Assembly: GCF_000972385.1 (NCBI RefSeq)
Contig: NZ_JXTE01000078.1
Location: 1 to 35,017 of the forward strand
Direction of reading: 5' to 3'
DNA from: Streptomyces sp. WM6386
Lineage (GTDB): Bacteria > Actinomycetota > Actinomycetes > Streptomycetales > Streptomycetaceae
Length of the DNA stretch: 35,017 nt
In this document: one piece after another, positions 7,535-11,039 of the stretch
How positions within the stretch are numbered: the first letter of the stretch is position 1
Layout: every line of letters starts with the position of its first letter
Translations under genes and position numbers: made by a program
The notes under the pieces: model-generated
Databases searched by the model: none
Told to the model about the DNA's origin: nothing
The model's input: only the letters and a program-made list of their open reading frames with translations

Positions 7535-8242
7535 TCATACCTCAGGTGGGCCGAACTCCCGGTCGCGCAGCTGCCGTTCGCACTCCCGCGCAAGGTCCGG
7601 GTACGCCTCGGAGATGGCGGCGTAGACCCTCCGTCGTAGCAACTCCTCCGCTGCCGCCCGGCCGGTGCTTGCGTACAGTCCGTCGAGCAGCTCGTCGTAG
7701 CGTGTCAGCCGGTGACGCAGATAGTTGACCTTCCACCGGGCGAGCGCTTGGGGTTCGGCGCTCTCGACCGTGGCGGGACTGGGTGCGTGGCCCCAACGCT
7801 CGTACGACCGTTCTTCGTCACGGCTGTTTCGATGCGCGACGGCCACTGCCGAAAGCCGGTCGGGAGGCAGTCGCGGCACGTCGACGGGCTCCGCGGCGAT
7901 GCGCGCCAGCACTTCCCGCCGCCTGCGCTGCGCGGCGGCCTTCGCCGCGACGGATCGACGGACGGATGCCGCCGACACCGCCCTGAACTCCTCGCTCGCC
8001 TCCACCGCCTCGACCCGCTCGACGCGGTAGAGGCGGGTCTGCGGAGCCGTCCGGAAATACGGGTTGGCCCGGAGTAGATCGGGCTCGCCGAGCAGCTGTC
8101 GCACCATCCTGGCGGTCCAGCCGCGGGCGCGCAGGCCGGCCGTGGAGAGGTGGGTGTTGCGCGGTGGGGCGTCGGTGCCGTCCTGCGGGTTCTGCTGAGC
8201 GGGTGCCTGGTCGTCCTGTCGGCATGCCTCGTCGTGCGTCAT
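7535..8242 (-). CDS. Conserved actinobacterial protein of unknown function, possible XPA-C-like N-terminal region
   Basis: ATG 8242 is preferred over ATG 8281 because GGGGAAG lies six bases before it, giving 235 aa. The N-terminal part has TARMVRQLLGEPDLLRANPY and RTAPQTRLYRVERVEAVEAS, followed by a long basic helix (SVRRSVAAKAAAQRRRREVL), probably coiled coil. The C-terminal half has ARWKVNYLRHRLTRYDELLD and RVYAAISEAYPDLARECERQ, a block I associate with Streptomyces proteins of unknown function. The first block vaguely resembles XPA-type DNA-binding helices. A truncated copy lies at 6591-6887. Confidence 0.7.
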   Translation of the reverse strand: MTHDEACRQDDQAPAQQNPQDGTDAPPRNTHLSTAGLRARGWTARMVRQLLGEPDLLRANPYFRTAPQTRLYRVERVEAVEASEEFRAVSAASVRRSVAAKAAAQRRRREVLARIAAEPVDVPRLPPDRLSAVAVAHRNSRDEERSYERWGHAPSPATVESAEPQALARWKVNYLRHRLTRYDELLDGLYASTGRAAAEELLRRRVYAAISEAYPDLARECERQLRDREFGPPEV

Positions 8243-9085: not shown

Positions 9086-9907
9086 ATGCCCACTCTCCCC
9101 GACCCCGTCTTCCTCGACGCCACCGCCGACCGCCTCGCCGCCCTTCCCACCGTCCACGCCGTAGCTCTCGGCGGCTCGCGGGCCCAGGGCACGAACCGGC
9201 CGGACAGCGACTGGGACCTCGCCGTCTACTACCGCGGCCCCTTCGACCCCGCCGACCTCCGGGCCCTCGGCTGGGAGGGCGAGGTGTCGGAGGTGGGCGG
9301 CTGGGGTGGCGGCGTCTTCAACGGGGGCGCGTGGCTGACCGTCGACGGACGGCGGGTCGATGTGCACTACCGCGATCTCGACGTCGTGGAGTACGAGTTG
9401 GCGCAGGCGCAGGCCGGGCGCTTCCGGGTGGAGCCGCTGATGTTCCATCTCGCGGGGATTCCCAGTTACCTGGTGGTGGCGGAGCTGGCCATCAACCAGG
9501 TGCTGCGGGGTGAACTGCCGAAGCCCGTCTCGTATCCCGACAAACTGAGGGCCTCCGCCTCCGAGCGCTGGCACGGCACCGCCCGAGCCACCCTCGCCTA
9601 CGCCAAGTCCGCCCACGCCCCGTCCGGCCGCGTCACCGAACTCGCCGGCGCGATCGCCACGGCCGCCATGCAGGCGGCGCACGGGGTGTTGGCGGGGCGG
9701 GGGGAGTGGGTGACCAATGAGAAGCGGTTGTTGGAGCGGGCGGGGTTGCGGGCAGTGGACGGTGTCGTCGCTGCACTGTCCACGGGAAAGGATCCGGGCG
9801 CGCTGAACCAGGCGACCGATCACGCTCAGGCGCTCTTCGAGCAGGCCGGTGGGCAACGGCAAGCGGACGCCCAGGCGCCCGTTCCTGGCGACCCCGCCGA
9901 CGAATAA
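9086..9907 (+). CDS. Nucleotidyltransferase-fold protein (MNT/KNTase-like)
   Basis: The 273-aa protein starts at ATG 9086. The polymerase-beta-type nucleotidyltransferase motif is complete: ALGGSRAQGTNRPDSDWDLAV, with Gly30-Ser31 and the metal-binding Asp42/Asp44. A third Asp (Asp92 in RRVDVHYRD) is in the expected strand. The C-terminal part is helical (TARATLAYAKSAHAP, AIATAAMQAAHGVL) and resembles the substrate-binding half of aminoglycoside or toxin-antitoxin MNT nucleotidyltransferases. It should transfer NMP to a small molecule or macromolecule. No HEPN partner is visible. It lies 41 bp upstream of the gene at 9949 on the same strand. Confidence 0.85.
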   Translation: MPTLPDPVFLDATADRLAALPTVHAVALGGSRAQGTNRPDSDWDLAVYYRGPFDPADLRALGWEGEVSEVGGWGGGVFNGGAWLTVDGRRVDVHYRDLDVVEYELAQAQAGRFRVEPLMFHLAGIPSYLVVAELAINQVLRGELPKPVSYPDKLRASASERWHGTARATLAYAKSAHAPSGRVTELAGAIATAAMQAAHGVLAGRGEWVTNEKRLLERAGLRAVDGVVAALSTGKDPGALNQATDHAQALFEQAGGQRQADAQAPVPGDPADE

Positions 9908-9948
9908 CCTTTCGAAATACGGCCGTTGTCGCTGGTAACGTCCCTGAC

Positions 9949-10680
9949 GTGGCGAAACTCAATCAGATCATCGCAGTCGAGAAGGGCGTCAAGTCCAAGG
10001 CGCACCAGGACCTGACGGCAGCTCACCATGGGCTGCAGAAGCCCGCGTTGCTGGCCGGTATCTCGCGTACCTACCAGCCCAAGGACGAGGAGGGCGAGCA
10101 GTTGCCGCCCGAGTCGACCCGGGTGCAGGTGAAGGCGGAGGACGTGCTGCGGGAGACCGCGGCGACGCTGACGCGGCTGTTCGATGTGACCGCCACGAAG
10201 GACTGGGCCAACTGCGCCGCGCGCGCGGATGTGAAGGTGGACGGGCGAGTGCTCGTCGCCGATGTGCCGGTGTCGTATCTGCTGTTTCTGGAGAAGCAGC
10301 TCGTCGACCTCAACACGTTCGTCCGGAAGCTCCCCGTGCTCGACGCCTCCGAGGGGTGGGTGCAGGACCCGTCCACGGACTCCTGGAAGACCGAGCCGGT
10401 GAGGACCCTCCGTACGAAGAAAGTGCCCCGCAACCATGTGAAGGCCGAGGCGACCGAGAAGCATCCCGCTCAGGTCGAGGTCTATTACGAGGACATCCCG
10501 ATCGGATACTGGACCACCGTGAAGTTCTCCGGTGCGCTTCCGGCCCGGCGCGTCAATGAACTCCTCGACCGGGTCGAGAAGTTGCAGCAGGCCGTGAAGT
10601 TCGCCCGGGAAGAGGCGAACGGCGTGGACGTCGTCGACGAGCGGGTCGGGGACGCCGTGTTCGGTTACCTCTTCGGGTAA
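9949..10680 (+). CDS. Conserved actinobacterial protein of unknown function, 243 aa
   Basis: GTG 9949 gives MAKLNQIIAVEKGVKSKAHQ; there is no evident Shine-Dalgarno sequence, so the mRNA may be leaderless. The protein is soluble, charged and rich in Val/Lys, with VQVKAEDVLRETAATLTRLF, VLVADVPVSYLLFLEKQLVD, and a C-terminal DRVEKLQQAVKFAREEANGV. No catalytic motif is recognised. The sequence looks like a coherent, conserved fold rather than a spurious frame. It follows the nucleotidyltransferase gene and lies directly upstream of the permuted tRNA region; there is no evidence of a functional link. Confidence 0.7.
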   Translation: MAKLNQIIAVEKGVKSKAHQDLTAAHHGLQKPALLAGISRTYQPKDEEGEQLPPESTRVQVKAEDVLRETAATLTRLFDVTATKDWANCAARADVKVDGRVLVADVPVSYLLFLEKQLVDLNTFVRKLPVLDASEGWVQDPSTDSWKTEPVRTLRTKKVPRNHVKAEATEKHPAQVEVYYEDIPIGYWTTVKFSGALPARRVNELLDRVEKLQQAVKFAREEANGVDVVDERVGDAVFGYLFG

Positions 10681-10691
10681 TCTCAGAGAAT

Positions 10692-10713
10692 CCCCGGTCC
10701 TTTGCGGCCGGGG
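10692..10713 (+). terminator. Hairpin terminator after the gene at 9949
   Basis: CCCCGG (10692-10697) pairs with CCGGGG (10708-10713) around a 10-nt loop, eleven bases after the TAA stop. There is no T run, which is common in Streptomyces. It separates the protein gene from the tRNA-like transcription unit. Confidence 0.6.
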
Positions 10714-10726
10714 TGCGCGAGGAGCG

Positions 10727-10849
10727 CAAGCTGAAGCTGAAGCTTGTCGTGACTGAACGGTCGTATCCGCCAAAGAACGTAGGACCGACCGTCATCAATC
10801 TCAGACTCTTGCTCCAGACTCAGTATTCGCCGTCGATCGCCGGATCGAC
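10727..10849 (+). other. Structured leader upstream of the permuted tRNA
   Basis: Three hairpins stand in this non-coding stretch: CAAGCT/AGCTTG (10727-10732 with 10741-10746), ACGGTCG/CGACCGT (10757-10763 with 10786-10792), and GTCGATC-GCCG-GATCGAC (10832-10849), a 7-bp stem with a tetraloop. Together they suggest a structured RNA leader. I found no convincing promoter; TAGGAC at 10780-10785 is only a possible -10. Confidence 0.45.
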
Positions 10850-10850
10850 C

Positions 10851-10957
10851 GGGCCCAGGCTTAGGGCGTCGAGATGCTGGTTCAAGTCCAGTCCGCACAG
10901 CTCGATGTGCGGTGGTCCAAAGGCAGGACGCGACGACATTACGACTGATCTGGGCTC
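10851..10957 (+). other. Leader/trailer helix enclosing the permuted tRNA
   Basis: GGGCCCAG (10851-10858) is complementary to CTGGGCTC (10950-10957) over 8 bp with one G-U. In the precursor this helix stacks beyond the anticodon stem, across an internal loop of 8 nt (10859-10866) and 14 nt (10936-10949), and would hold the two ends to be cleaved and joined close together. In algal permuted pre-tRNAs a bulge-helix-bulge does this job; the loop here is not a canonical one. Confidence 0.6.
10860..10935 (+). tRNA. Circularly permuted tRNA gene: 3' half precedes 5' half
   Basis: The 3' half comes first: possible anticodon loop CTTAGGG (10860-10866), anticodon 3' stem CGTCG (10867-10871), variable loop AGAT, T arm GCTGG-TTCAAGT-CCAGT (10876-10892), acceptor 3' strand CCGCACA (10893-10899) and G73 (10900), with no encoded CCA. 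After CTCGA comes the 5' half: acceptor TGTGCGG (10906-10912), T8 G9, D arm GTCC-AAAGGCA-GGAC (10915-10929), G26, anticodon 5' stem CGACG (10931-10935). The acceptor (7 bp), D (4 bp) and anticodon (5 bp) stems pair perfectly by Watson-Crick; the T stem has one G-U pair. U8, A14, G18G19, A21, A15-U48, G53-C61 and TTCAA are all in place, so a chance match is very unlikely. The joining point is uncertain; if the loop comes from the 3' half the anticodon is UAG. U1-A72 with G73 and a short variable loop resemble tRNA-Asn/Gln rather than tRNA-Leu. Confidence 0.88.
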
Positions 10958-10994
10958 TCAAGTGTGCCGGCGTGCGAAATGGACGGCATTCCCA

Positions 10995-11039
10995 GGGCCC
11001 GGGGGCAGGCTACGCCCTCGGGCCCGCTCCTCTTTCTGG
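10995..11039 (+). terminator. Strong intrinsic terminator of the permuted tRNA unit
   Basis: A continuous 12-bp stem (10995-11006 with 11014-11025, one G-U) with a 7-nt loop is followed by the pyrimidine-rich GCTCCTCTTTCT tail (11026-11037). A terminator this good, 60 bp past the tRNA and with no protein gene just before it, implies that the tRNA region is a dedicated transcription unit. Confidence 0.75.

Follow-up and report, generated by a model that had tools for sequence, protein, structure and literature searches.

The stretch immediately downstream of a DUF7873 gene in Streptomyces sp. WM6386 probably encodes a structured noncoding RNA, namely a tRNA mimic of the YrlA kind that remains unspliced and in which DUF7873 takes the place of Ro60. 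A conserved predicted fold, covariation within that fold, linkage to DUF7873 in both Streptomyces and phages with hosts from several phyla, and a likeness to YrlA were all observed in the analysis of a single sequence of 35,017 nucleotides (the window) and its relatives. A preliminary description had interpreted the locus as a circularly permuted tRNA gene; this interpretation is replaced here by that of a Y-RNA-kind tRNA mimic with a new protein neighbor, a role predicted from sequence.

All features of the element are located on the forward (+) strand. The DUF7873 gene (9949..10680, 243 aa, Pfam PF25283, E 7.9e-121) directly precedes the predicted RNA, whose 5′ hairpin, CCCCGGTC/GGCCGGGG (10692..10713), was paired by RNAalifold with several pairs changed on both sides (columns 20-27/47-54). 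It is followed by a short hairpin, ACGGTCG/CGACCGT (10757..10792, from the oriented alignment of 16 loci); a conserved strand, TCAATCTCAGACTCTTGCTCCAGACTCAG (10795..10823, from the alignments of 16 and 20 loci); and a conserved short inverted repeat, TCGATC/GATCGA (10833..10848, from sequence and alignment), which is paired otherwise in the whole-element folds. The short hairpin occupies the site of unit B, a second permuted tRNA-like unit that is carried by 52 of 80 loci, has been lost in the window strain, and is retained in a near-identical relative (L078). Farther downstream, the permuted tRNA-like domain itself, unit A (10867..10935; identified by ARAGORN on the re-joined halves, alignment, covariation and fold), is flanked by the 5′ side (10851..10864) and 3′ side (10945..10957) of a basal stem found in both the minimum-energy and consensus folds. 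The predicted RNA end is a terminator-like GC hairpin with a T-rich tail (10995..11025), identified by a consensus scan and by conservation, being kept in the 17 rows of the 20-locus alignment that come from named genomes; the terminator scan alone is no evidence, because it found one candidate compared to an average of 1.0 in shuffled sequences. Unit A lies between the DUF7873 gene and this hairpin.

From its 5′ end, unit A consists of the anticodon-stem 3′ strand (10867-10871), the T arm (10876-10892), the acceptor 3′ strand (10893-10899), a six-base loop between the acceptor strands (10900-10905), the acceptor 5′ strand (10906-10912), the D arm (10915-10929), and the anticodon-stem 5′ strand (10931-10935), such that 10867-10935 spans a complete tRNA cloverleaf with its halves swapped. 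The preliminary description of 10860-10935 agrees with the letters of the window: the acceptor (7/7), D (4/4), anticodon (5/5), and T (5/5, including one G-U) stems pair as it had claimed, and the tertiary bases it named are all present, as read by eye. The rearrangement it had proposed as a check, 10906-10935 followed by 10860-10900, was called by ARAGORN as a tRNA-Leu(UAG), confirming that re-joining gives a complete cloverleaf; no tRNA was called by ARAGORN on the window as written. The same four arms form without re-joining in the minimum-energy fold of 10849-10958 as a single strand (-46.5 kcal/mol, z -2.6), with equally good folds in 3 of 200 shuffles. A descriptor of the permuted shape had one match in the window, at its maximum score of 21, and no match in 200 dinucleotide shuffles of the window (both strands, spacer up to 40). 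No match for the RNA of the window was found in Rfam at the gathering score.

Conservation of this region was assessed in 100 genomes, of which 14 (counting the window's own) match a 110-base stretch at E 0.001; all 14 are among the 61 same-genus genomes, with none among the 39 others. The compensatory changes that the preliminary description had suggested seeking by aligning relatives were found: 13 of 21 pairs of unit A changed on both sides, a level of covariation reached in 0 of 500 shuffles. This alignment has 53 rows, the window among them, of which 52 are distinct; pairing holds in every cell where both positions carry a letter (1085/1085) and falls to 29-44% when the partner strands are slid. 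The rows were preselected by the descriptor, which asks for pairing of the T arm, acceptor and D arm and for some tRNA bases; the resulting bias is small, because 79 of 80 loci passed (the exception being L132). When RNAalifold was applied to 20 whole elements with no imposed structure, unit A, the 5′ hairpin and the basal stem were recovered, and 45 of the 85 pairs in the consensus fold showed compensatory changes. For unit B, the same consensus fold shows the T, acceptor and D arms and lacks the anticodon stem. A wider alignment includes phage rows, which were admitted only with a 7/7 acceptor and four or more anticodon pairs, and its pairing figures are weak evidence for that reason. This alignment, in which the window is represented along with five named phages by a single unit apiece, served to build the covariance model R1.

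The units are tightly linked to DUF7873. In the best 80 of 538 loci, units adjoin the gene in all 80, on the same strand and 80-281 bases 3′ of it, with two units in 52 loci and one in 28; away from DUF7873, only 2 descriptor matches occur in the 1,902 kb of the same 80 loci (both strands). These loci represent close relatives, as their proteins share 87-99% identity with that of the window, and 79 of them are labelled Streptomyces. A unit also follows DUF7873 in 10 of 10 further loci (the best 10 of 45), 3 of which were already among the matches to the 110-base stretch. DUF7873 itself occurs in 44 of the 100 relatives, including 32 of 61 from the genus, 12 of 15 from the order, and 0 of 24 from further out; among the DUF7873 candidates scored, 7,346 of 7,999 are matches. 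Deinobacterium chartae provided the sole match for DUF7873, as well as the sole match for TROVE, among 14 control genomes. A search of the available literature found no paper mentioning DUF7873. The upstream neighbor of DUF7873 in the window encodes a small protein with a nucleotidyltransferase domain (PF01909, 9086-9907).

DUF7873 is also found in 73 named phage records and in IMG/VR contigs, with hosts including Gordonia, Arthrobacter, Rhodococcus, cyanobacteria, Rhizobium, Vibrio and Klebsiella. In all nine phage records inspected it is annotated as hypothetical, and in at least four of the nine (Mimi, GodonK, NiceHouse and RHph_TM21B) it is located inside a tRNA array. For 89 phage loci, the 700 bases that follow DUF7873 (61 kb in total) contain 120 descriptor matches, compared to 11 elsewhere (2,020 kb, both strands), with matches over ordinary tRNAs removed and near-duplicate loci kept. 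A counted unit lies within 700 bases after the gene in 74 of these loci; in six of the remaining 15 (L180, L195, L197, L216, L236 and L237), R1 finds a unit within that distance. Among the nine named phages, eight have a unit just 3′ of the gene; Microcoleus phage My-WqHQDG shows none at this position. Of 119 descriptor matches in phage loci, 47 have an encoded NCCA after the acceptor strand and 70 have a U before the 5′ strand; these counts include matches distant from DUF7873 or overlapping tandem tRNAs. Given these frequencies, some of the phage copies could be opened by RNase P. Permuted-looking units also occur away from this position. Phage contig L234 carries two (7984-8217) on the strand opposite to DUF7873, >1 kb from the end of the gene. 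Others lie away from DUF7873 in phage tRNA arrays (L228, 8131-8569; L029, 7145), some of which may be tandem tRNAs; the one at L029 7145 has no 5′ half just upstream.

Tandem tRNA genes are a general trap for scans of this type, since the descriptor and R1 also fire on adjacent ordinary tRNA genes, such as a tRNA-Asn pair in the window's own genome (G000:C268). Tandem tRNA-Asn genes that mimic a permuted tRNA in same-genus genomes (L257-L260; G000:C268, G031, G036 and G015) were set aside, and one more strong match, in G088, lies inside a tRNA array. This artifact is not the cause of the signal in the window, because the window has no ordinary tRNA.

The closest known class is the YrlA Y RNA. 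According to the part of the literature available, the ends of YrlA form a stem that carries a tRNA-like domain composed of D, T and acceptor arms (PMC8394870). The RNA is a substrate of DusA and TruB and serves as a tether between Rsr (Ro60) and PNPase (PMC8394870, PMC6181284); abundant transcripts near an Rsr homolog in a Listeria phage have likewise been proposed, in the portion of that report available, as Y RNAs of the Ro60 kind (PMC12282133). The Rfam model of YrlA matches permuted units, indicating that YrlA has the permuted order. Of 14 phage loci scanned, 7 have a match to this model (RF02553) no more than about 800 bases past DUF7873, in each case below the gathering score (E 1.3e-5 to 0.08, at most 41 of 69 bits); the other 7 have none, nor does the window, even at E 10. 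The model also matches 11 of 12 TROVE loci (the 12 comprised 11 from the same genus and 1 from the same order), again below gathering and at most at 58 bits, while R1, derived from DUF7873 units, matches 21 of 30 TROVE loci. By these cross-matches, the RNA classes of DUF7873 and Ro60 share a permuted tRNA domain. Likeness alone is not proof of descent, and the R1 matches at TROVE loci may instead stem from a tRNA-like shape, given that R1 fires on tandem tRNAs and that tmRNA models match some TROVE-linked RNAs. Of the features that define YrlA membership, the element has both the tRNA-like D/T/acceptor domain and flanks paired as a basal stem.

No Ro60 (TROVE) gene lies beside the element, the only TROVE match of the genome being on another contig (C790). 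Two permuted tRNA-like units are located just upstream of the likely start of this host Ro60 gene (L262, G000:C790:14000-19500). A dependence of the element on Ro60 was considered and rejected, as DUF7873 and TROVE are independent in 37 same-genus genomes (Fisher p 0.74): 13 have both, 7 have DUF7873 only, 10 have TROVE only, and 7 have neither, such that a Ro60 match is absent from 7 of the 20 DUF7873-bearing genomes. Both systems co-occur in Rhizobium phage RHph_TM21B (L245), which has a DUF7873 unit and, just before its TROVE gene, three permuted units (9736-10575), two of which match the YrlA model (E 1e-4 and 3e-4). Among the matches listed for permuted tRNAs, Y RNAs and tRNA mimics, the portions of the papers available do not appear to describe the present element.

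In the mechanism proposed here, the RNA would be produced together with the DUF7873 message or after it, and would end at the hairpin near 11025. Its halves would stay joined through the acceptor loop, giving a closed, hairpin-capped tRNA shape on the basal stem that would never act as a decoding tRNA. DUF7873 may bind the shared stem region of this RNA, a guess based on gene linkage: the predicted structure of DUF7873 is confident and no structural relative was recognized, so that its fold does not support RNA binding. By analogy with YrlA and its partners DusA, TruB and PNPase, the tRNA-shaped end may recruit or decoy tRNA-handling enzymes. In phages, where the pair can sit in tRNA arrays, it would help to manage or protect the tRNA pool.

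A more elaborate joint reading, considered unlikely, holds that DUF7873 and a twin-domain RNA form a Ro60-free ribonucleoprotein, borne by phages in their tRNA arrays, in which RNase P opens the acceptor ends bearing NCCA to yield chargeable two-piece mimics, and which Streptomyces has domesticated. As part of this reading, mimics that have no anticodon loop would decoy host tRNA enzymes, including anticodon nucleases, while remaining uncut.

That the element gives rise to a two-piece tRNA-like RNA, in which the acceptor loop would be opened by RNase P together with 3′ trimming, leaving two base-paired pieces with a free, possibly charged 3′ end, appears quite unlikely as an explanation in its own right. 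It is favored by the frequencies of NCCA and U given above for phage loci, with far and tandem-tRNA matches kept in, and by matches of the beta_tmRNA model (RF01850) to units in three phages (E 5e-4, 8e-4 and 0.25). In contrast, the 54 distinct copies of unit A from named genomes all lack NCCA, and in 53 of them the base before the 5′ strand is A or G; NCCA is also not specific to the two-piece class, because it occurs in 6 of 28 TROVE-linked matches. The alanine identity pair of tmRNA is G3-U70, and the third acceptor pair in the window is U-A rather than this G-U. No tmRNA model matches in the window. A processing route of this type has been proposed for permuted tmRNA, with RNase P and tRNase Z as the likely enzymes, according to the available part of the source (PMC3985003).

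It is improbable that the element is a purely cis-acting 3′ UTR, whose tRNA shapes would stabilize or regulate the DUF7873 mRNA, for example by autogenous binding, with no separate role. The constant arrangement would fit such a function: in all 80 loci (the best 80 of 538) the units share the strand of the gene and lie 80-281 bases past it, and a terminator-like hairpin closes the element. However, the tRNA-like tertiary bases and the presence of two domains in 52 of the 80 loci exceed the needs of a 3′ stabilizer, and the units of phage contig L234 lie on the opposite strand, >1 kb from the end of DUF7873.

Very improbable is a true circularly permuted tRNA gene, in which the anticodon loop of the precursor would be the site of cutting and ligation and the acceptor end would then be opened to release a decoding tRNA. 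The part of the preliminary description that holds is the swapped-halves cloverleaf with covarying stems, a full cloverleaf called as tRNA-Leu(UAG) once re-joined; the part that does not is a tRNA cut and rejoined at the anticodon, as the loops are variable and no splicing endonuclease was found in 37 genomes. Across 79 copies, the would-be anticodon loop takes 38 different 7-mers, such that orthologs share no conserved anticodon loop; none of the seven-base sequences before the anticodon stem equals the CTTAGGG of the window, T is at the second place in 9, and the commonest would-be anticodon, CCG, occurs in 20. In both consensus and minimum-energy folds, the anticodon helix runs on into the conserved basal stem, with asymmetric internal loops between the two stems. 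Predicted folds inspected by eye show no bulge-helix-bulge at the junction in its strict 3-4-3 form (two 3-base bulges and a 4-bp helix); relaxed forms are known, as stated in the available part of a review (PMC3978253). The tRNA-splicing endonuclease (PF01974) was found in 0 of 37 genomes by a search that was positive in 4 archaeal controls. The NCCA in 47 of 119 phage-locus matches (far and tandem-tRNA matches kept in) would suit a tRNA gene, against which stands its absence from all 54 distinct unit A copies of named genomes. The RtcB ligase, a further point in favor, is present in 36 of 37 genomes, so that a missing ligase is no argument against splicing; its presence neither supports nor excludes ligation. 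Thus, a permuted tRNA gene is not supported, with the would-be anticodon bases predicted to enter internal loops and a further stem. The premise of the preliminary description that permutation would be novel to bacteria also passes over YrlA Y RNAs and two-piece tmRNA.

Other candidates were rejected: a chance palindrome (0/200 shuffles and covariation in relatives), tandem ordinary tRNAs or an intron-split tRNA (no ARAGORN tRNA in the window, and anticodon strands that pair inside the unit), a permuted group I intron, an idea that the conserved flanking sequence had prompted (Rfam group I models gave no match in the window), and the remnant of an integration site (the 331-base query had no match among phage records, and the position of the element after DUF7873 is fixed).

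The preferred reading, an unspliced YrlA-kind tRNA mimic partnered by DUF7873, describes a widespread candidate RNA-protein pair, neither half of which has been named, the protein having no assigned function. If the pair is a ribonucleoprotein, Y-RNA-like tRNA mimicry is not tied to Ro60, and thousands of DUF7873 proteins would gain a testable function. Furthermore, the location in phage tRNA arrays allows a part in tRNA supply, or in a phage-host arms race over tRNAs, to be tested directly.

Among known systems, the permuted tRNA genes of algae and Thermofilum (34 in six algae and one archaeon, by the count given in the available part of a 2014 review, PMC3978253) resemble the element in having the 3′ half before the 5′ half and in forming a cloverleaf once the halves are joined, whereas the element has no visible bulge-helix-bulge, splicing endonuclease or shared anticodon. 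Two-piece tmRNA likewise has its acceptor 3′ strand upstream of the 5′ strand, and the likeness extends to NCCA in part of the phage copies and to weak RF01850 matches, which occur in phages and not in the window; in contrast to tmRNA, the window has no alanine G-U pair, and its anticodon helix leads to another stem. YrlA, as described in the available part of its literature, shares with the element the T, acceptor and D arms, a closed acceptor end, and a basal stem formed by paired flanks. The element differs from YrlA in that it adjoins DUF7873 rather than Ro60/Rsr, gives no RF02553 match in the window, occurs in a genus where 7 of 20 DUF7873-bearing genomes show no Ro60 match, and has two tRNA-like domains in 52 of 80 loci.
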